Assembly: GCA_021292105.1 (NCBI GenBank)
Contig: CM037874.1
Location: forward strand, 40,402,404-40,466,403
From: Anadara kagoshimensis
Taxonomy: Eukaryota > Mollusca > Bivalvia > Arcoida > Arcidae
Reading direction: 5' to 3'
DNA length: 64,000 bases
Part shown: in pieces, positions 25,303 to 42,530 of the stretch
Position numbering within the stretch: the first letter of the stretch is position 1
Layout of the letters: each line of letters begins with the position of its first letter
Position numbers and translations under genes: made by a program
Notes under the pieces: model-generated
The model's database searches: none
What the model saw: only the letters and a program-made list of their open reading frames with translations
What the model was told of the DNA's origin: nothing

Positions 25303-25826
25303 CGCCATTTCGTAAAACAAAACAACATTGTAAACACCCACCCAGATGATATTTTGTCGCATAAAATGATACATGAAGCAAGGATGGAGCCGAAACAGGA
25401 AATTTTAGTAACGACTCGGCTCATATTGAAATTCTTAAAATATTTTGCGTTCTCCGCAATATGCTAAATAAATAATAGATTAATAGAATCTGTCACCTGT
25501 TTGTGACCGATACCGTATGATCTCAGTCGAGGGTGATGTGATGAAACGTATCCCAATCGAGGCTATGCCGAGATTGGGATACCTTACATCACATCACCCG
25601 AGACTGAGATTAACCCATATCGGTCACAAACCGGCGACAGATTCTATTAATCTATTATTTATTTAGCATATTGCGGAGAACGCAAAATATTTTAAGAATT
25701 TCAAATGAGCCAAGTTGTTACTAAAATTTCCTGTTTCGGCTCCATCCTTGCTTCATGTATTATTTTATGCGACAAAATATCATCTGGGTGGGTGTTTGCA
25801 ATGTTGTTTTGTTTTACGAAATGGCG
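25303..25826. repeat. ~260-bp-arm palindrome (foldback element)
   Basis: The left arm from CGCCATTTCGTAAAACAAAAC is repeated in reverse to GTTTTACGAAATGGCG at 25826. Arms share CACCCACCCAGATGATATTTTG, ATGAAGCAAGGATGGAGCC, ATATGCTAAATAAATAATAG and GTGATGTGATG with scattered mismatches. The centre lies near 25566, between GTATCCCAATC and GATTGGGATAC. Confidence 0.9.
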
Positions 25827-27293: not shown

Positions 27294-28346
27294 TGTAACA
27301 GCGATTATTTTTATACATTTTAACTGAGCGTCGGCAACAGCAAATTATCAAGTCCTGCCGCGCCCAGTATAAATATTTCACTTATATTTATATTTATGTA
27401 GTCAATTTCAGTTTCCATCACTTACTTTAATTGTAGTACGCTACTTTCATTTTACTTTTCATCGGTTGTTATACAATAATAACAATTTTGTCAGTTCTAC
27501 CAGGTCATATATAAAACTCATTTTCATTGGTTTAATTTACTACTTTTGGCCAATCAGAATAGATTTTGTTTTATTAAGTTCGTTCTTGTTTTCGCTATTC
27601 TGATTGGTTCATTTATTAATGCACCCTGGCAAAATAGTATAAAAGGCGCTATAGAACTGCTCTAACCGTCTTTCGGCCGGCTGTTACAGTGGCAAAAGGT
27701 TCTCAAACGACCTGCACTATTAAATAGCCCTTTGGTGGTCTCTTCCCACTCCACGTGGTTTAATGTTTTAGACATTCTTACTAAAATGGGGGGGGGGGGT
27801 TTATTCAAAAGTGTTCCTTGGGTTTAATTTCATTTTATCCCTTTCACTATCGTTTAGGTATTTTTTTTATTATCATTAAAGTTAGGATGTTTGACCATTG
27901 CAAATAATGTTAAGGTGTTAGGTTCATTTTTCTCCAGATAGTATTATTCAATTATGTAGGTCGTTAATATTCTTCTATATATTTTTGCTCCGTCGCCGGT
28001 ATTCTCCCCTTAGATATTTTAATTGTATTTCATTGTCCATTTTTGTAAAGTTATAATGTTGTTATGGTGCTGAATTTCATTGTTATTTGTTGCTGCAGCT
28101 GTTGATTGTTTTAAGCTTATATTTCGTAATAAATTTATAAGTTTTGTTATTTCTTATTTTGGTGGCTTTTTGGAGGTGTGAGAGCTATGTCATAACCCTG
28201 AGAATGAACCAGCAGCTGTCATCTATGTGGTTTTCTTTTACTCCGAATAGCAATATATAATTGTTGAATGCTCGGATTAGATTAAAACCCATATTTGAGC
28301 CGTTGTGCTGCCGAGTGTCGGTTCGAACCCTTAGGTTCCGGTTACA
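27294..28346 (+). repeat. 5' LTR
   Basis: 1053 bp, TGTAACAGC..GGTTACA. U3 has inverted CCAAT boxes and a TATA box. AATAAA at 28128-28133 lies in the R/U5 part. It includes a G-run near 27787-27797 that differs in length from the 3' copy. Confidence 0.97.
27550..27646 (+). promoter_or_regulatory. U3 promoter: inverted CCAAT pair and TATA box
   Basis: CCAATCAGAATAG (27550-27562) and its exact reverse complement CTATTCTGATTGG (27595-27607) stand 31 bp upstream of TATAAAAGG (27638-27646). The arrangement is that of an RNA polymerase II core promoter with two NF-Y-type sites; transcription would start near 27670. The same set is in the 3' LTR (TATA at 36204-36212). Confidence 0.75.
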
Positions 28347-28350
28347 TTTT

Positions 28351-28364
28351 TGGTCCCGCGAGGC
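28351..28364 (+). promoter_or_regulatory. Primer-binding site (candidate)
   Basis: TGGTCCCGCGAGGC begins 4 bp after the 5' LTR. TGG pairs with a tRNA 3' CCA, and the rest would pair with the acceptor/T-arm of a tRNA ending GCCTCGCGGGACCA. I cannot identify the tRNA. Confidence 0.7.
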
Positions 28365-28649
28365 TGATATATCCGATTTATAGGATTTTTCAGGGCGGAA
28401 ATCTTGACATAGCTTTCGTTGTTGCCCTCTCATGCTGAGGTTGTTAATTTTAAGTTGCTGTTGCTTTACTTCACATCAGTTGGTTTAAAGTTCGTTGTTT
28501 AATTTTTATATCTAGTTGGTTTTGAATAATAATAGTAGTTTTGTAATTCAGTTTGTCGTTATTTTTCATTCTTTTACTAAGTACATTTTACATTTGATTC
28601 ATTCGTTTTATGTTAAATTTTGTAGTTTGTTAGTCTTATAATTATTATT

Positions 28650-30028
28650 ATGGCTCAGCGTACAGACGATTTGGGTTCAGAGCACCGTGTGCTTAAGGGA
28701 TTCGAGGGCTTAAAGGAAGATGAACTTCACTGAAATTATAAATCGGGTTTTGATTCTGCAATCGACCCGTCAGTTATCAGTCCTATTAAAAGTAGACAAA
28801 ATGTTCAAGGTTTTAGTACACCTAATGTTAAGTTTGTAGGTGATACGCAGTGTAGTACGGTGGACAGTGGTACCATGACATGTTTTGATGACGGTCGCTC
28901 TGAATTGTATGATAAATTGGAAAAGCAGTTTAATTCTGTTACAGCTGAACTGGGAGATGTTACTAAGCGATTAAAAGAGAAATGTACTCTTATGGCGTCA
29001 CAGCTTGGTAATTGTCAGTCGGGTTCTAGTGAGGTTGATTATTCATGTCGAATTTCACAAAATATGCCTCTGTCAGATAGAAATAAGGAACTTAATGATC
29101 CTATTTCAAAAAGGCATAACTTTGGTGTTCCAAATAAATCAGTAGTTGGTTCTAATCGTGGTCTGCTTAGGCGTGAGAAATAAGTTTGACGGTAGTTCAT
29201 GTATGTGGCGGGATTACATAGTTCAATTTGAACAGGTTGCTATGTGGAATAATTGGACTTATGCTGAAATAGCTCAACAACTGTGTATGTCATTAAGGGG
29301 CGCTGCTCAAAAGTTAGTTGGTGATTTAACTGTTTCTCAACGCCATGATTATTCTTAGCTCAAGCGTATTTTAGAACAAAGGTTTAATCCAAAAGAGAGA
29401 TGTTCTGCTAATAAAACAGAGTTTAAAACTAGGAGACGACTAAAGGGCGAAACACCTGAGGACATTGGTTATGCTTTAAGGCGTCTTGGTAGTTTAGCGT
29501 ATCCACATGTGCAGTATGACGCTAGGGAGGAAAATGTCATTGATAAATTTATTGAAGGCTTAGGTAATAGGGAGTTAAGCAAGCATATTCAATTCAAACA
29601 TCCCGAAACTTTAGATGAAGCGATTGCTTATGCAATTGAGTATGAGGCTTTTGATCATGCTTTTGAAGTTGGTTTGGTTAAGCCTAAGTTTGCTGACGAT
29701 AGGCCTAATAGTGTCCGTTCAGTTAAGCCGGTTCGTCCTTCTAAGGCTGAGTCTTTTAGGGAACGCAAATCAGCTGTTGAAAATGTTGAATGCCAGAGTA
29801 GGATGAGTTCAATGTATAAAGAGTTCCAAAAAGCTTTGTAATGACATTAAGATTGAAAGGACAAATATTGAAAAATTATGCAAACAATTTAAACAGGATA
29901 GAGATCGGTCCTTGGCTAATGCAACTACATGTACTTTTAATCAAGTCACAAATACTGGTTGTTTTAAGTGTGGAAAATTGGATCATTTTATTGCTAGTTG
30001 TCCTTTGAATAAGGGCCAGGGAAACTAA
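28650..30028 (+). pseudogene. Gag polyprotein (broken)
   Basis: ATG at 28650 (MAQRTDDLGS..) opens the N-terminal region. The frame has a TGA at 28731-28733 and continues open to 29183. A frame change near 29170 leads into the capsid-like region (FDGSSCMWRDYIVQFEQVA.., 29190 onward), which has a TAG at 29356-29358 and continues to 29841. A second change near the A5 run at 29826 leads to the nucleocapsid with one CCHC knuckle, CFKCGKLDHFIASC (29960-30001). The reading frame ends at TAA 30026-30028, immediately after a GGGAAAC slippery site. Gag would form the particle that packages the RNA. Capsid features match Ty3/Gypsy Gag of invertebrates. Breaks in short homopolymers could partly be sequencing errors. 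Confidence 0.9.
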
Positions 30029-30093
30029 GTAGGGCTACACTTAAGGCCGAAGATTTAGCCCAGGAAGTTGAAGAGCAGTCTAGCTCTAGGCCT
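30019..30093 (+). promoter_or_regulatory. Putative -1 ribosomal frameshift signal, gag to pro
   Basis: In the nucleocapsid frame the codons read G GGA AAC and then TAA, the X XXY YYZ form. Slipping back one base at 30019-30025 continues directly into the protease frame. After a 6-nt spacer, GGGCTA (30032-30037) pairs perfectly with TAGCCC (30056-30061). Loop AGGCC (30044-30048) could pair with GGCCT (30089-30093) as a pseudoknot, with a 5-bp AGAGC/GCTCT hairpin in the linker. GGGAAAC is an established slip site in several retroviruses. Function here is inferred. Confidence 0.75.
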
Positions 30094-30956
30094 GATCTTA
30101 AATTTTCAGTTAGCCCCATTTCAAAATCTTGTTTGTTTGCCCCTGTAAGAATAAGTGGCAGAAATTTTAATTTTTTGGTTGATACGGGTGCCTCAGTTAG
30201 TGTACTTTCTAAGGATATTTATTTGGATTTAGGTGATATTCAACCTTGCTTAAAAAGGGATTGAGAACCCTGACCACAGCTGATGGTAGTACCATGGAAA
30301 CTTTGGGTATAGCCCCTCTTGTGTTTGGTATAGGAGACTTTGAGTTTAATTTTGAGGTTGTGGTGTCTGACTTGAATGGTTTGGATGGTATTTTGGGTTT
30401 TGATTTCTTGGAGGAGAATGACATCACTATTGAAACTTCTCAAAAACAGTTCCGTATTGCTGGTCAGTATTTGCCTTTACACAAGTTGGAAAATAACATG
30501 TGTGCTAGGATTAAGGTGTCTAAAAATATAACAGTACCTCCACAGTCTCAATTACTTATTAAAGCTTATGCTGATGGTGACTTGGATTGTAGACAGGAAG
30601 CTTTAATAGAGCAAAGTAGTTTTTTGGGTAATAGGGGTGTGCTATTGGCTAGAACATTAGTTGACCCTTGTAAGTCCAACTTTGATTTATCAGTGATTAA
30701 CATTACTGACAAGCCTGTTAAGTTAAGGAGGCACGTACCTATAGCCAGTATTGAGTCAGTTGATTTATTACCTGATAGCCTAAGTAAAAGCTTTTGTTTA
30801 AAGGACACTGTTGTACCCGAGCATCTTCAACCTTTGTTAGACAATGCTTCAAAAGAACTTACTGATGAGCAAATGTCCCACTTGGCTAGTTTATTAGTGG
30901 AGTTTCAGGATATTTTTGTTGGCACTGATAGAAAGCTTGGTCGTACTAGTTTAACT
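30019..30956 (+). pseudogene. Pol: aspartic protease region and linker (broken)
   Basis: In the -1 frame from 30019, about 50 linker codons precede the retropepsin active site LVDTGAS (30175-30195). A frame change at the AAAAAGGG run near 30255 is followed by the second half with the conserved ILGFDFLEEN (about 30391-30420). A roughly 180-codon spacer reaches the next break near 30957. The protease would cut Gag and Pol. Hydrophobic-hydrophobic-DTGA and ILG-x-DF spacing is that of Ty3/Gypsy proteases. Confidence 0.9.
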
Positions 30957-32230
30957 AAGCAATAAGATTGATACAGGGGATTCTGCTCCATTTAAGCTTC
31001 CACCTCGTAGGCTACCTATATCTCAGAAAGAAATAGTGGAGAAAGAATTGACTAAAATGTTAGATAATGATATCATAGAGCCTAGTGAAAGTCCTTACTC
31101 AAGTCCAGTCACCTTGGTTACCAAGAAGGATGGATCTATACGTTTTTGTATTGATTATCGCAAGCTTAACTCAATTACTCGGAAAGATGCTTACCCCTTG
31201 CCTAGGATTGATGATTGTATTGATACACTTAGTGGAGCAAGATGGTTTAATACTTTAGACTTGGCTTCTGGATATTGGCAATGTGCTATGGATGAACAGG
31301 ACAAAATTAAGACAGCTTTTACAACTCACAAGGGCTTATTTCAGTTTAAAGTGCTCCCATTTGGTTTGGCTAATGCACCTGCATGCTTCGAGAGGTTGAT
31401 GGAATTAGTGCTTAGGGGTTTACAGTGGGAATATTGTTTGTGCTATCTTGATGACGTCATTGTGTTTGGAGCTACGTTTGAAGATACAATCAAAAATTTG
31501 CATTTAGTTTTCAATCGTTTTAGAAGTGCAAATTTGAAGTTGAAACCGAGCAAGTGTGTATTATTTCAAACCGAGGTTTTGTTTCTGGGACATGTTGTTT
31601 CGCATGATGGGGTGAAATGTGATCCAGCTAAAATTGAGGCTATTACAAATTGGCCTGCACCTACAAATGTCAGTGAAGTACGTAGCTTTCTAGGCATTGC
31701 TGGCTATTATAGGAAGTTTGTTCCAGATTTCTCCACGGTTGCAAAACCATTGACTAGTCTTACTCGGAAAAATAAAGTTTTTATTTGGTCATCTGATTGT
31801 CAGAAATCGTTTGAGTGTTTAAAGTCTCTATTAATTTCATCTCCTATTTTGGCTTTTCCCAAAGGTGAAGGAATTTTTATTTTGGATACGGATGCTAGTC
31901 TCTATGGTATTGGAGCTGTTCTATCACAAGTACAGGATGGGGAAGAAAAAGTAATAGCTTATTCTAGTAAACACTTAGTAAAACTCAGAGTAGATATTGT
32001 GTTACATATCGTGAACTTTTAGCTGTTGTTAGTTTTGTTAAACAGTTTAGGCATTATCTTTGGGGTAGAAAATTTATTATTCGGACAGACCATGCTTCAC
32101 TTATTTGGCTGAAAAATTTCAAAAATCCGGAGGGTATGTTAGCACGTTGGATAGCTTCTTTGGATACTTATGATTTTATACTTCAGCATCGTAGGGGTTA
32201 TCAACATTCAAATGCCGATGCTTTGTCCAG
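30957..32230 (+). pseudogene. Pol: reverse transcriptase and RNase H (broken)
   Basis: The frame from 30957 is open to 32022. It carries the HKID..G..P entry motif, SPYSSPVTLVTKKDGSIRFC, DYRKLNSIT, YPLPRIDD, DLASGYWQ, LPFGLANAP, the catalytic CYLDDVIVFG (YLDD at 31444-31455) and the connection FLGIAGYYRKF. RNase H begins ILDTDAS (Asp ligand), crosses a frame change near 31985, then shows ELLAVV (Glu ligand), IRTDHASL (Asp ligand) and HSNADALSR near 32205. All catalytic residues I can check are present; only the shift breaks the chain. It would copy the element RNA into DNA. Confidence 0.95.
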
Positions 32231-34000
32231 GAGACCATATAGTCATTGTAAACGTGATGATTGCCCAGGTTGTTGTGATTTCATCCAATGTACTGGTGTG
32301 GATGCTAACTTAAAACCTACAGATTTCGCAGAGTCTGTCTTAAGTTTGGCAGATAAAGCAGACTTTAAAGAGTCTCTTTATGTTACACCACTTTTTGTTG
32401 ATAATGATACAGAAGAAAGTAATGATGGTTTTGATTCTGAGAATGATACTGATTCTTCAGAGGTTGTGGGTGTTCCAAATTGGTTATCATGTTGGTCACA
32501 TCAAGAGTTAAAGGAGTTTCAACAAAACGATCCTAATATTAGAAAGATTTTGGATTTAAAACAAAACTTTGATAGAAGACCCGAAAGATGTCATATTGCA
32601 AATGTTGTTTTTGAGGTGCGTCACCTTTGGAGTGTTTGGGAATTATTGGTAGTTGATAATGGGTTACTTTATTATAAATGGGATTCTAGAAATGAAGAGT
32701 TTTCTTTAGTTTTAGTGGCTCCAAAGGAAATTAGAAATAAAATTCTTTATGAATTACATAATAAACGTACTGCTGGTCATTTAGGTAGGGATAAGACACT
32801 TAGTTCAGTTCGTCGTAGATGGTATTGGTCTGGTATGAGTTCAGATGTTAAAAGATGGTGCAAGCAGTGTCATCTTTGTGCTAGATCTAAGAGAGGTCCA
32901 GGACTTGGTCGTTCCCCTCTACAGCAATCAAGTGTCGGTGCTCCATTAGATAGAATTGGTATTGACATAGTTGGTAGTTGATTAATTACAGATGATGGGA
33001 ATGAGTATATAATAGTAGTTTGTGACTATTTTACAAAGTGGGTTGAATGTCAGCAGTTCCTAACCATACAGCATTAACTGTTGCTGATAAATTAGTCAGT
33101 GAATTGTTCTGTAGATTTGGGGTTCCTAAGCAGATTCACTCTGATCAAGGTTCTGAGTTTGAGTCGGAGTTATTCTCAGTCTTATGTGAAAAGTTTGGTG
33201 TAGAGAAAACCCGAACTACACCTTATAGGCCTCAATCAGATGGTTTAGTTGAACGATTTAACAGGACTTTAATTCAAATGCTTTCAGTTTTTGTTAATGA
33301 AAATCGCTCAAATTGGGATGATCATTTGCCATTTTTGCTGATGGCCTATCGCTCTAGCGTTCATAATAGCACAGGTTATACACCTAATAAGATGATGCTT
33401 GGTAGGGAAACTTTGTGTCCTTTAGATCTCATGGTAGGCAGTCCACCCGATTTTTATATAGAATCATGTCCAGTTGAATATGTTGAGTGGCTAAAGTTTA
33501 CTATGTCAAAAACTCACGAAATGGCACATATGCATTTAAAGAAAGCTGCAGTTCATCAGAAAAATAGTTATGATCGGGGACTGAAACCCCGTACTTATAA
33601 CATTGGTGATTTTGTTTGGAGATGGTATCCTCCCCAGGCAAATATTAAACTTGGCTTGGGATGGACAGGTCCTTATCGTATGCTTGAAAAGTTTTCTTAA
33701 GTAACATATAAGATTCAGAAAGATCCACATAGTAGATCCATTATTGTTCATGTGGACCACCTAAAACCATATGAGGGTGGTAATATTCCTGAGAATTGGC
33801 TAGATAATGATCCAGGTTCTGCTAGTGATGACCTTAATTCTTCTCAGGGATACTTATCTGATGATAAGGAGGATACTTTTTCTGGTGCCGGCGATGGAGC
33901 AAACCTTTTTATTTCCCCATCCCCTAAATATACAACACCCCCTAGAACCAGAGCAGGTAGAAAAATCAGGAAACCTGTCCCTTATTCTCCATCTTTGTAG
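32231..34000 (+). pseudogene. Pol: integrase (broken)
   Basis: An acidic linker (about 32300-32470) leads to the HHCC zinc domain: LHNKRTAGHLG (two His) and CKQCHLC (Cys pair), about 32750-32880. The catalytic core has IGIDIVG (first Asp, about 32960), then a TGA at 32979-32981 and a one-base frame change near 33045. IHSDQGSEFES (second Asp, about 33140) and SDGLVERFN (Glu, about 33245) follow, giving D,D-35-E-like spacing. The C-terminal part contains PRTYNIGDFVW and is interrupted by TAA at 33698-33700. The same frame continues through VDHLKPYEGG to TAG at 33998-34000, an acidic Ser/Asp-rich tail ending in basic residues. No chromodomain is evident. Confidence 0.93.
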
Positions 34001-34852
34001 GGATTGCCACTGTCAGTCTTGTAAATATGTATATACTTGTTATGTTTAGTCTGATTTTGTCAATGATCCATGGGAAAATTAAATTTTTGTTAAAATTGTC
34101 ATAAGTCCCTTTAGATGTTTTCAATGTTGTGCAGCAGCATATAATTTTTTTTGTAAAAAAAAAATGTTCATTTATTCTCATTATAATGACCCCCTCCCTT
34201 CCAATTATCATTTCCAATGAACACATTAAAAAAATACATTGTAATTAAAAACTTAATATAGACAGCTAGTGGATATTGTGTATATATATATATATATATA
34301 TATACTTTTGCCACAAACTATATAGGGTTTTCATAACCAGTAGCTATATTATGTGGTAGTGTCAATAAGTTGAAGTTGCAAATGTTGTTGAAGCTTATTT
34401 GGGCACTATGACTATGTGGGGGCTAATAATATGTCATAGATCATAGATCATAGTTAACGTTGTATCAATAATGGCTTTATTGGAGTTGAGTTTCATATTC
34501 AGTGGCTGTCTATATCATAATTTTTCATAATTTAGTCAATCTCCAGTGGTGGATGGGTCGTGTCTGATCAACACTGCCTATTCATTATTGGACATTATCA
34601 ATGTCGGTGATGGGGTTGTAACTGATCATTACAACATCATCATTGATATTACGACTTTCTTCAACTGAAATAAAACATAAAACAGTTCATTAATATACAT
34701 ATAGAACACATTACATGTTTTTGTAAGATTGTGATTAATTGCAATTTTTTGGCAACATCTACTCGTAGTCCCATAGGTAGGAATAATTCGTTGAGGTGTT
34801 CCTAAAATAAATTTTACTTACAGTTTTATAATTACTATATTTCAGGAAAAAA
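34001..34852 (+). other. Non-coding interval between pol and accessory ORF
   Basis: AT-rich, with a (TA)n tract at about 34280-34304 and no coding frame. It ends in a pyrimidine-rich ATTACTATATTTCAG (to 34845), a good splice acceptor 7 bp before the accessory ATG, so the ORF downstream may be read from a spliced transcript. The donor is not identified. Confidence 0.5.
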
Positions 34853-35406
34853 ATGGCAGATATATTATCTCTAGACCCTACAGCAGATGAAATTATGGCG
34901 TTGGACGATGATCTGAGGGAGCCATGGCCTGCAGAAGGCATGGAGTGCAGGGTTCCTGAATGTGCGGATAAAGGGTTTTTCAAAACCCTGCCTTTATATC
35001 GTAAGCATTGGAGGAAATTTCATGACTCTATTGCTTCCTTCTTTGTTTGCCCTGTGTGCCAACGTAGCCTTGGCTACAGATGGGAGCTTACCCGCCATCT
35101 GAAACGGGTGCATAGGGTAAGCGCTGAAGTAGCAGCTCAGATGTGTGGGGGGTTGTGGCCCAGGAGCGGCCAAACCCTAAGTACATCCCTCCGGGGGATG
35201 TACTTCCTCCAAAGAGGAACCAGACCATCAATGAGGAGGCTATAGATGCAGCCAAGAGACAGAGGAAGGCAGAGGTTGCAAACCTGGAGCCTCTGTTCTC
35301 TCTTCCAAAGCACACGGTTGCCAGGGACCAAGAGGTCCATCTTTCTCATAATAAGGAGGGAGATGTGGTGGAGTTTCATGTCACCAAAAGATACAAGAAA
35401 AATTAA
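34853..35406 (+). CDS. Accessory two-C2H2 zinc-finger ORF (frameshifted)
   Basis: ATG at 34853 (MADILSLDPTADE..) starts an acidic N-terminus of about 30 residues. Finger 1 is C32-x4-C37-x14-H52-x4-H57 and finger 2 is C66-x2-C69-x12-H82-x4-H87, the latter canonical C2H2. A one-frame change near GTGTGGGGGG (35143-35152) is needed to continue into QERPNPKYIPPGDVLPPKR and a Lys/Arg-rich, charged C-terminus ending at TAA 35404-35406, about 184 residues in all. As read, the first frame stops at 35245. It lies in sense between pol and the PPT, where env sits in errantiviruses, but it has no signal peptide or transmembrane segment. It may be a DNA/RNA-binding accessory protein or a captured host gene; function unknown. 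Confidence 0.7.
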
Positions 35407-35442
35407 TTGCTATGTTCGCGTTTATAGACATTGTTTATGTGT

Positions 35443-35556
35443 GCCTGTACCGTTTGTTGACAATGTTTCGCGTGTGCCGTATATGGGCAATGTTTGTTTG
35501 CCTGTACCGTTTATTGACAATGTTTCGCGTGTGCCGTTTGTGGACAATGTTTTCAG
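35443..35556 (+). repeat. 57-bp tandem duplication downstream of accessory ORF
   Basis: Two copies (35443-35499 and 35500-35556) of GCCTGTACCGTTT(G/A)TTGAC..GTTTCGCGTGTGCCG..; each contains two related GACAATGTTT-type half units. Confidence 0.85.
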
Positions 35557-35845
35557 TATTTTCCATGGACTGTGATAGTGTTTTATTATTGTTATTATTA
35601 TTATTATTTATGCTCTACTTTCATTTATGTTGACATTGTTACCATTTTATTACATTATTTTCAGTTATATGGACTAAAAAGACATTTATCCATGAACTTT
35701 TATTAATTTAATATACATTTTGATAAAATGATTTGATTTATATTTTGGAACTATTTTACTTTGATAATATTTTACAATTGTTGACATTTTTTTCTAGATT
35801 TCTTGCTGTTGTTTTTATTATGACCAAATTTGTTAAATTTGTTCT
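35557..35845. other. Non-coding 3' interior of the retrotransposon
   Basis: T/A-rich, including ATT triplets at about 35585-35605. No coding frame. Confidence 0.6.
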
Positions 35846-35859
35846 AAAGGTGGGGGGAG
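35846..35859 (+). promoter_or_regulatory. Polypurine tract
   Basis: AAAGGTGGGGGGAG abuts the 3' LTR start and would prime plus-strand DNA synthesis. Confidence 0.9.
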
Positions 35860-36916
35860 TGTAACGGCGACTATTTTTATACATTTTAACTGAGCGTCGG
35901 CAACAGCAAATTATCAAGTCCTGCCGCGCCCAGTATAAATATTTCACTTATATTTATATTTATGTAGTCAATTTCAGTTTCCATCACTTACTTTAATTGT
36001 AGTACGCTACTTTCATTTTACTTTTCATCGGTTGTTATACAATAATAACCATTTTGTCAGTTCTACCAGGTCATATGTAAAACTCATTTTCATTGGTTTA
36101 ATTTACTACTTTTGGCCAATCAGAATAGATTTTGTTTTATTAAGTTCGTTCTTGTTTTCGCTATTCTGATTGGTTCATTTATTCATGCACCCTGGCAAAA
36201 TAGTATAAAAGGCGCTATAGAACTGCTCTAACCGTCTTTCGGCCGGCTGTTACAGTGGCAAAAGGTTCTCAAACGACCTGCACTATTAAATAGCCCTTTG
36301 GTGGTCTCTTCCCACTCCACGTGGTTTAATGTTTTAGACATTCTTACTAAAATGGGGGGGGGGGTTATTCAAAATAAATTGTTCCTTGGGTTTAATTTCA
36401 TTTTATCCCTTTCACTATCGTTTAGGTATTTTTTTTTATTATCATTAAAGTTAGGATGTTTGACCATTGCAAATAATGTTAAGGTGTTAGGTTCATTTTT
36501 CTCCAGATAGTATTTTATTCAATTATGTAGGTCGTTAATATTCTTCTATATATTTTTGCTCCGTCGCCGGTATTCTCCCCTTAGATATTTTAATTGTATT
36601 TCATTGTCCATTTTTGTAAAGTTATAATGTTGTTATGGTGCTGAATTTCATTGTTATTTGTTGCTGCAGCTGTTGATTGTTTTAAGCTTATATTTCGTAA
36701 TAAATTTATGTGTTTTGTTTTTCTTATTTTGGTGGCTTTTTGGAGGTGTGAGAGCTATGTCATAACCCTGAGAATGAACCAGCAGCTGTCATCTATGTGG
36801 TTTTCTTTTACTCCGAATAGCAATATATAATTGTTGAATGCTCGGATTAGATTAAAACCCATATTTGAGCCGTTGTGCTGCCGAGTGCCGGTTCGAACCC
36901 TTAGGTTCCGGTTACA
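35860..36916 (+). repeat. 3' LTR
   Basis: 1057 bp, TGTAACGGC..GGTTACA; about 99% identical to the 5' LTR. Followed by ATTA (36917-36920), the 3' target duplication. Confidence 0.97.
36699..36704 (+). terminator. LTR polyadenylation signal
   Basis: AATAAA in the 3' LTR, equivalent to 28128-28133; it would end element transcripts. Confidence 0.6.
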
Positions 36917-40616: not shown

Positions 40617-42530
40617 TTTTAGCTCACCTGACCATAGGTCATGTGAGCTTATGGCATAGCGCAGCGTGTGTATGTGCGTGCGTCGTTAACACACATTTTC
40701 GACTTCTCCTCTGAAACTACTGGACAGATTTCAATGAAACTTGGTAAGAAATATATATGGGCCGGTGGAATTCAGATTTGTTCGTGGCGTTGCCATGGCT
40801 ACCATAACTAGGTCAAGGTGACCTAGGGGTGCAAAAATCTTCTTCTCCGAAAGTACCGATTGGAGAAAAAATCTGATGTGACATTTGGCTTCTCTAGGGT
40901 CTTAAGCCTATAGTTTGTTCAATATTTGAAATTCAGACAAAAAATAGGTTACGCGTTTTTGCGTTTAATTTTGAAAAAAATCATATAGCTTCAAATTGTT
41001 AAAACTTGACTATTTGACCAGATAATGACATGGGGTTTTCAGTTTTGACATATTCTTGTAATTACCTTCAAAATGGTGTCAAGGTCAATTATGAAGGTCA
41101 TGACCTAATTTTTTACCTTTCTAATACTATTTATTATCTGGAAAACTATAAACTTTTTATATAGGCATGTAAATTAAAATATTGTTGGTATTGAGGTAAC
41201 GATCATTTTGATATATAGATAAAGGTCATTGGTTCAATGGTCAAGGTCACAGTAGCAAAACAATACCAAAATGTTTCTTTATCTTGAAAACTATGAGCTA
41301 TTTATATAGGCATGTATATTAGAATGTTGTAGGTATTGATACAACGATCATTTTGATGTATAGAAAAAGGTCATGGGTCCAAAGGTCAAGGTCACAGTAG
41401 CAAATCAACACCAAAATGGTTAATTATCTCGAAAACTGTAAACTTTTTGTATAGGCATGTACATTGGAATGTTGTTGGTTTTAGTGTAACGATCATTTTG
41501 ATATATAGATTAAGGTCATTGGTTCAAAGGTCAAGGTCACAGATGCGAAAGAATACTGAAATGGTCCATTATCTTGAAAACTATGAACTTTTTGTATTAG
41601 CATGTATATTAGAATGTTGTAGGTATTGATACAACGATCATTTTGATGTATAGAAAAAGGTCATTGGTCCAAAGGTCAAGGTCACAGTAGCAAAACAATA
41701 CCAAAATGGTTAAACTTTAAACTTTTTGTATAGGCATGTATATTGGAATGTTGTTGGTTTTGATGTAACAATCATTTTGATATATAGATTATGGTTATTG
41801 GTTTAAAGGCCAAGGTCACAGATGCGAAAGAATACTGAAATGGTTCATTATCTTGAAAACTTTGAGCTTTTTGTATAAGCATGTATATTAGAATGTTGTA
41901 GGTATTGATACAACGACCATTTTGATGTATAGAAAAAGGTCATGGGTCCAAAGGTCAAGGTCACAGTAGCAAATCAACACCAAAATGGTTAATTATCTTG
42001 AAAACTATAAACTTTTTGTATAGGCATGTACATTGGAATATTGTTGGTATTGATGTAATAATCATTTTGATATATAGATTAAGGTCATTAGTTCAAGGTC
42101 AAGGTCACAGATGCGAAAGAATACTGAAATGGTTTATTTTGAAAACTATTAACTTTTTGTATAGGCATGTATATTAGAATGTTGTAGGTATTGATACAAC
42201 GATCATTTTGATGTATAGAAAAAGGTCATGGGTCCAAAGGTCAAGGTCACAGTAGCAAATCAATACCAAAATGGTTAATTATCTTGAAAACTATAAACTT
42301 TTTGTATAGGCATATACATTGGAATATTGATGGTATTGATGTAATGATCATTTAAATATATAGATTATGGTCATTGGTTCGAAGGTCAAGGTCACAGATG
42401 CGAGTAGCAAGTTTCATAAATATCTAAATATCCACATCAGAGTTATTGATCCTTAAATGTAGTATTTATTGTGTTTTTGTGCTGTTAACGGCCCAGGTGA
42501 GCGGTACAGGTCCTATTGGGCCTCTTGTTT
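40617..42530 (-). mobile_element. HINE-like element with ~144-bp satellite, reverse orientation
   Basis: Left end AGCTCACCTGACC..GGTCATGTGAGCT is the hairpin terminus. Right end CCCAGGTGAGC..CCTATTGGGCCTCTTGTT is the reverse of the AACAAGAGGCCC start. Inside, about nine units carry AAAGGTCAAGGTCACAG with TATAGGCATGTA(T/C)ATT and ACGATCATTTTGAT at spacings of 134-149 bp. The outer part (GGCGTTGCCATGGCTACC, TAGGTCAAGGTGACC) matches 55800-55870 in reverse. Confidence 0.8.

Follow-up and report, generated by a model that had tools for sequence, protein, structure and literature searches.

The locus examined here lies on contig CM037874.1 of the bivalve Anadara kagoshimensis, in a 64,000-nt stretch of DNA (hereafter "the window", with positions counted from its first letter), and it raises the question of what a reading frame for a protein with two C2H2 zinc fingers is doing between pol and the 3' LTR of a retrotransposon: whether it is a passenger, a captured host gene or a working part of the element, and in the last case on what its product would act.

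A Ty3/Gypsy element with a zinc-finger ORF in the env position

The element spans 27294-36916 of the window and is complete at both ends (Table 1). Its LTRs, which have TG...CA ends and are flanked by a 4-bp target duplication (ATTA), are 98.2% identical according to BLAST (16 mismatches in 1051 aligned sites, K2P 0.015), and both a primer binding site and a polypurine tract are present. The Pfam domains of pol follow the Gypsy order (RVT_1, RT_RNaseH_2, Integrase_H2C2, rve), and the protease ahead of RT gives a weak match (RVP_2, E 0.007, under the Pfam cut-off). By its LTR/PBS/PPT set and domain order, and weakly by its protease, this is a Ty3/Gypsy (Metaviridae) element. The gag-pol region is interrupted in several places by stops and frameshifts, and the window copy is dead. 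Among the Pfam matches of the scanned ORFs there is no env family of the kind that would mark an errantivirus-type element; the ORF in the env position codes for a C2H2 protein.

Table 1. Features of the element and of its accessory ORF (positions in the window)
Feature	Position	Strand	Remarks
5' LTR	27294..28346	+	98.2% identical to 3' LTR (BLAST)
TATA-like box in 5' LTR	near 27640	+	
Best donor-like site in presumed leader	28175/28176	+	in U5; GAG/GTGTGA
Primer binding site	28351..28368	+	begins TGGTCCCGCGAGG
gag-pol region	28650..34000	+	RT, RNase H and integrase pieces recognized; stops and frameshifts
Non-coding block	34325..34850	+	A-B similarity; end of predicted intron
Predicted conserved RNA structure	34534..34655	+	two hairpins with complementary loops
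Hairpins 1 and 2	34542-34592 and 34600-34650	+	RNAalifold, 14 sequences
Complementary loops	34565-34570 and 34623-34628	+	
Splice-acceptor-like site	34826..34845	+	ends 34845/34846; kept in other lineages
Finger half of accessory ORF	34853..35242	+	open ATG frame; stop 35243-35245
Finger 1	34946-35023	+	
Finger 2	35048-35113	+	
Basic tail half of ORF	35146..35406	+	different frame; stop TAA 35404-35406
Polypurine tract	35846..35859	+	
3' LTR	35860..36916	+	followed by target duplication ATTA

The open ATG frame codes for both fingers (C32/C37/H52/H57 and C66/C69/H82/H87) after an acidic start and lies in sense between pol and the polypurine tract, all as proposed in the initial annotation of this DNA. 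That annotation had also read 34853-35406 as a single frame with a basic tail; the tail exists, but a frameshift puts it in another frame. The spacing of finger 1 is unusual (C-x4-C-x14-H-x4-H), and Pfam scores finger 2 only, under its gathering cut-off. Outside the element, none of the 155 stop-free frames of at least 60 aa in the window contains two C2H2 patterns. The GC content is 49% in the ORF, 30% in the preceding stretch, and 42%, then 20%, in the following one. Directly 3' of the ORF, at 35438-35551, there are two 57-nt direct repeats, 91% alike, with units of the type GTTTGTTGACAATG.

Copies, relatives and selection

Searches of the 1.115-Gb assembly (36 contigs) with the ORF gave 31 matches at the DNA level, the window's own included, and 103 at the protein level, several of which are pieces of one place. 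At 19 of the 20 loci fetched from the DNA matches, element sequence adjoins the ORF; at L027 the ORF alone was matched, with no adjoining element match. The ORF is shared by other copies of the element in the same place, with intact versions of about 184 codons, so that the one-off insertion considered in the initial annotation is not borne out. We distinguish subfamilies A (the window and L009-L015), B (L016-L026) and C (L028). Stop-free frames of at least 180 codons are present in L009 and L010 (A), L017 and L018 (B), L028 (C), L029 (E) and L032 (G), and L020 has a near-full stop-free frame. The majority of the remaining A and B copies are broken; such decay of single old copies should be expected of dead insertions. 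Further lineages with integrase or pol upstream of the ORF are E (L040), F (L031), G (L032) and H (L035, L039), and neither was found upstream of L029 and L036-L038 within the stretch fetched. Among the best 150 of 1591 integrase candidates, 51 rows of at least 56% identity correspond to 49 places (two rows were dropped as second pieces of counted places), and at 38 of these the ORF follows on the same strand at most 8 kb downstream, mostly at a distance of 0.6-1.4 kb.

Several peculiarities of the copies were noted in passing. Contig C3, which makes up 6.3% of the genome, holds 43 of the 76 ORF places (hand-merged from DNA and protein matches, host-like ones included) vs 10 of 99 distant integrase rows. 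At L028 and C4:36417963-36430240 there are repeated C-type segments comprising integrase, RNA hairpins and ORF, two of them separated by about 3 kb and a further one lying about 7 kb beyond, and at L035 (C3:59481700-59484700) tyrosine-recombinase-like frames, recognized by eye, lie beside a Gypsy integrase remnant. L011 (C11:29150700-29156200) is a mosaic with integrase, ORF and LTR of A-type and an RNA block of B-type, which shows that modules recombine.

The protein, termed here ORF3, is about 184 aa long and consists of an acidic N-terminus, the two fingers, a PPGDVLPP-like motif and a Lys/Arg-rich tail. The N-terminal motif and the two fingers, spacing included, recur in lineages A to H, as mostly does the post-finger motif; the intact ORFs of seven lineages share 14 invariant columns, namely the eight zinc ligands and D20, G29, V34, L83, N108 and P114, and one zinc ligand is lost in the decayed copy L037. 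By its ligands, and by the structural model of the relative P0003 described below, ORF3 is a C2H2 zinc-finger protein, with Pfam scores under the gathering cut-offs. Compared with solved structures, the finger profile finds its best matches mostly among DNA-binding C2H2 proteins (e.g. CTCF, Tramtrack). The window frame as a single-protein query returned no match, whereas alignment queries did, and profile searches identified four relatives, P0001-P0004, of which P0001 is from Mytilus galloprovincialis (120 aa, E 1.7e-26). AlphaFold gave a mean pLDDT of 44 for the window's 100-aa finger piece alone; the model of P0003, built with five aligned sequences, has two beta-beta-alpha units with ten-residue means of 65-81 over residues 21 to 90 and low-confidence ends, and its best Foldseek match, the two-finger Tramtrack peptide 2drp, is weak (E 0.045). 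Viral contigs scanned with the finger half and the RT piece yielded no relatives.

Between subfamilies the ORF is under purifying selection. The dN/dS of the ORF is 0.16-0.17 between A and B (dS about 1.4) and 0.23-0.25 between A and C, and deeper lineage pairs have either saturated synonymous sites or dN/dS of 0.25-0.37; the neutral decay that had been put forward as an alternative to conservation is thus not what the copies display. The recent intact pairs L009/L010 and L017/L018 have 4 and 5 differences, and 9/9 are synonymous, all at third positions; of single-base changes in general, a share of about 0.22 would be synonymous. For the A-B pair the integrase has a dN/dS of 0.11 and a dS of only 0.50, against about 1.4 for the ORF, so that divergence is greater in the ORF than in the adjoining integrase. 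From these comparisons we regard it as highly probable that the clade carries a conserved accessory gene, an ORF of its own after pol that is maintained by purifying selection.

The initial annotation had assumed that standard Gypsy elements have in this position nothing or an env-like gene, a statement that does not fit this genome. In 16 Gypsy loci whose integrases share 40-50% identity with that of the window, we read about 2-3 kb beyond the integrase and found C2H2 ORFs at 11 (L042-L046, L048, L053-L057). In L043 the second finger is cut by the end of the stretch read, L054 is decayed with one finger in frame, and L043 and L057 seem to be one family; within the same distance no C2H2 ORF was found in L047, L049, L050, L051 and L052. 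A query with the C version found an ORF match at 0 of 99 distant integrase rows, and as C2H2 ORFs can be read at 11 of 16 distant loci, this zero reflects a detection limit and not absence. A profile of nine distant ORFs matches the A-H set with a probability of 94.5% over the finger region alone, which would also be expected from common C2H2 ancestry. By eye, the ORF3s of L042, L045 and L056 have a seemingly common long C-terminal domain with an LPDGTxYxLxTxW-like end.

The finger-only match of the distant ORFs speaks for the possibility that several Gypsy lineages captured host C2H2 exons separately, with functions specific to each lineage. An exon with its own acceptor would be easy to capture, which would account for the similar position and acceptor; the host-like L030 and L034 have acceptor-like sites before the exon, and L033 carries three host-like frames in tandem. 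However, the N-terminal motif, finger spacing and, mostly, post-finger motif shared by A to H argue for one origin within the clade, and we consider separate captures rather unlikely. A tree of element ORFs and host-like ORFs did not resolve the branching, and capture from a host gene is one possible origin of ORF3. The tandem host-like frames of L033 (C9:19747300-19752800) share the finger domain and have N-terminal extensions, and no pol was found in this stretch; these frames are possibly a host source or domesticated copies.

Putative splice signals and a predicted RNA structure upstream of the ORF

The splice acceptor that had been noticed before the ORF is a CAG acceptor-like site, and comparable sites end 0-9 nt 5' of the ATG in A, B, C, E, F, G and H. 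Altogether 14 of 16 ORFs have an acceptor-like site within 10 nt of the ATG vs 196 of 2462 background ATGs (8%); the 16 comprise seven lineages and nine ORFs from distant loci (L043 and L054 left out), for which the ATG was hand-picked as the one nearest the fingers. The best donor-like site in the presumed leader, scored with an approximate matrix, has its GT kept in 9 of 10 aligned LTRs. Taken together, these signals make it likely that ORF3 is expressed via splicing. At the U5 end (28320-28330) and in its 3' LTR counterpart there is also GGTTCGAACCC, kept in 6 of 10 aligned copies; it resembles the consensus of a pol III B box.

The non-coding block between pol and the ORF is unusually similar in A and B, with window identities mostly of 0.79-0.94 vs 0.64 at integrase synonymous sites, and this excess holds over most of its length. 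Within the block, and thus inside the predicted intron, two hairpins with complementary loops are predicted in A, B, C and E; between their end and the ATG lie about 90-200 nt. The loop sequences are TGATCA/TGATCA in A and E, TAGTCA/TGACTA in B and TGATCC/TGATCA in C; they are fully complementary in A, B and E and form 5 of 6 pairs in C. Across the whole block there are 15 pairs of 6-mers whose complementarity holds in A as well as in B; of these, the loop pair alone has two changed pairs, and its covariation is a single event (A vs B).

We evaluated the structure on several alignments. A2 consists of the window and 13 of the 16 full-length loci (without L009, L016 and L017), and A3, which is not fitted to the model, additionally omits L025. 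In A3, 98.2% of cells pair, and none of the 500 shuffles reaches this share of paired cells or the covariation score; the number of pairs with changes on both sides, 5 vs 4.2 in shuffles, is not raised (193 of 500 shuffles as high). In A5, to which C and E were added and which was fitted to the model, a procedure that favors the model, 23 of 44 pairs are changed on both sides vs 9.2 in shuffles (0/500 as high), and 97.6% of cells pair vs 27-60% in slid controls. Many of the changes turn A-U into G-U, in keeping with the sense strand; antisense matches of the model over the same stretch also occur in some loci and are weaker (about 8e-4 in four loci). Directly before the ORF the model matches lineage C (E 4.9e-6, two copies) and lineage E (3.5e-11 and 9.9e-9). 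It did not find the structure in F, G and H, save for a weak match in L037 (E 1), nor in the four distant loci searched, save for a weak match in L042 (E 0.029). Rfam has no match in the element at gathering thresholds, and when paired loops were sought naively in the other lineages, the outcome was no better than with shuffles, the A loops being missed too. Overall, the comparative data indicate with high confidence that the RNA structure is conserved. As F, G, H and the distant loci have fingers without a structure found, the protein and the RNA need not be partners.

Possible functions of ORF3 and comparison with known systems

In retroviral export, structured RNA is carried in the unspliced RNA, and Rev is a regulator made from spliced RNA. 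A small protein of apparently spliced RNA, an RNA structure in the would-be intron and a basic tail together have the layout of a regulator of unspliced RNA. We propose that the U5 donor would be joined to the acceptor before the ORF, giving an mRNA for the ORF3 protein, and that this splice would remove the RNA structure, which would then mark the unspliced genomic RNA. The ORF3 protein would act in the nucleus to regulate the RNA of its own element, and the structured stretch would serve as a cis signal that is bound by ORF3 or some host factor and allows unspliced genomic RNA to exit the nucleus or be chosen for packaging. Such a system would work like Rev/RRE or the CERV of Cer1, with unrelated parts. 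To this reading, i.e. a dead Gypsy copy from a clade whose ORF3, translated from a spliced mRNA, controls the element's RNA, perhaps its nuclear export, we assign a probability of roughly 0.47. The RNA-directed role of the protein in itself is suggested tentatively, at slightly less than even odds; we rate it highest among the candidate roles and a role at DNA or chromatin second. A broader version, in which Gypsy elements here and their relatives would have two-part RNA control by a two-finger protein made from spliced RNA only and a kissing-hairpin in the unspliced genomic RNA, is doubtful. If true, C2H2 fingers would form the basis of a counterpart to Rev/RRE that evolved independently, with a protein part old enough to be common to many Gypsy lineages.

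In the second-rated role the two-finger protein would bind DNA or chromatin, as an LTR activator or repressor, in anti-silencing or in integration targeting, and the RNA element would have a separate job. C2H2 pairs most often bind DNA, as the profile matches to CTCF, Tramtrack and similar chains recall; the fingers have changed rapidly between A and B (dN 0.31 vs 0.05 in integrase), which is expected if they track a changing LTR; and the concentration of the clade on contig C3 points in the same direction. The C3 excess may, however, be retention of old copies, and the finger pair, as read from its sequence, has no TGEKP-type linker, so that we hold this role to be unlikely.

It is more improbable still that the RNA element works alone, as a constitutive transport, dimerization or packaging signal, with the protein acting elsewhere. 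The structure is conserved in A, B, C and E, and its palindromic TGATCA loops are self-complementary in A and E; the B loops are not self-complementary yet pair mutually, which favors loop-loop contact over dimers of the same loop, and wherever the structure was found in a lineage, the ORF is next to it. We give almost no credence to a functionless passenger captured by chance and decaying neutrally, which the many broken single copies, the window's included, might suggest, as for this clade it is already contradicted by dN/dS well below 1 among A, B and C, by the synonymous-only changes of the recent pairs and by the invariant ligands.

Regulation of element RNA, our preferred reading, has a counterpart in the C. 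elegans Ty3/Gypsy element Cer1, whose CERV is, in the excerpted text of PMC10309623, a nuclear protein required for export of the element's genomic RNA. Like ORF3, CERV is encoded between pol and the 3' LTR; its mRNA is spliced, and acceptor sequences precede the predicted start. Unlike the single ORF found here, it has five exons and peptides in common with GAG, and that excerpt mentions no C2H2 fingers, of which ORF3 has two, known from sequence (PMC10309623). Other solutions to export named by the same source are those of Mason-Pfizer monkey virus, with a structured element, and of HIV-1, with Rev. The likeness lies in a structured RNA carried by unspliced RNA and, for Rev, in a regulator made from spliced RNA; there is no relation in sequence, and the counterparts here are predicted.

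Additional ORFs have been described in other LTR retrotransposons. According to the passages available from PMC5408684, those of bdelloid rotifers have family-specific ORF3s after pol, expressed from spliced messages and acquired repeatedly, but of different types (Env-like, GDSL esterase, DEDDy exonuclease, coiled-coil, transmembrane); "zinc finger", "Zn-finger" and "C2H2" are absent from that text. The AlkB-type ORF of orchid Ty3/Gypsy elements is likewise an extra conserved ORF, there with RNA-directed activity, and differs in having an enzyme domain and in its plant lineage (excerpt of PMC9289625). Tramtrack (2drp) and CTCF share the ligand pattern and fold of the finger pair, as far as the weak Foldseek match can tell, but they are cellular DNA-binding regulators, and the rest of the ORF3 protein is without a match. 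A search of the open-access literature by title and abstract start found no two-zinc-finger ORF3 in Gypsy. An extra ORF in an LTR element is known, and a zinc-finger ORF3 with an RNA element is, as far as seen, new.

Accessory regulators are commonly taken as a hallmark of complex retroviruses; for Gypsy elements, CERV of Cer1 is the single case encountered in the literature consulted. A conserved and apparently spliced zinc-finger ORF3, present in many Gypsy lineages of one animal and combined with a covarying RNA in the would-be intron, makes RNA-level self-regulation of retrotransposons testable in a new system. The finding also has a bearing on the C2H2 expansions of animal genomes, as ORFs of this kind may be annotated as host zinc-finger genes. 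Elsewhere in the window, at 25303-25826 and 41143-41990, there are 137-138 nt inverted repeats and a 145/279-nt tandem repeat.
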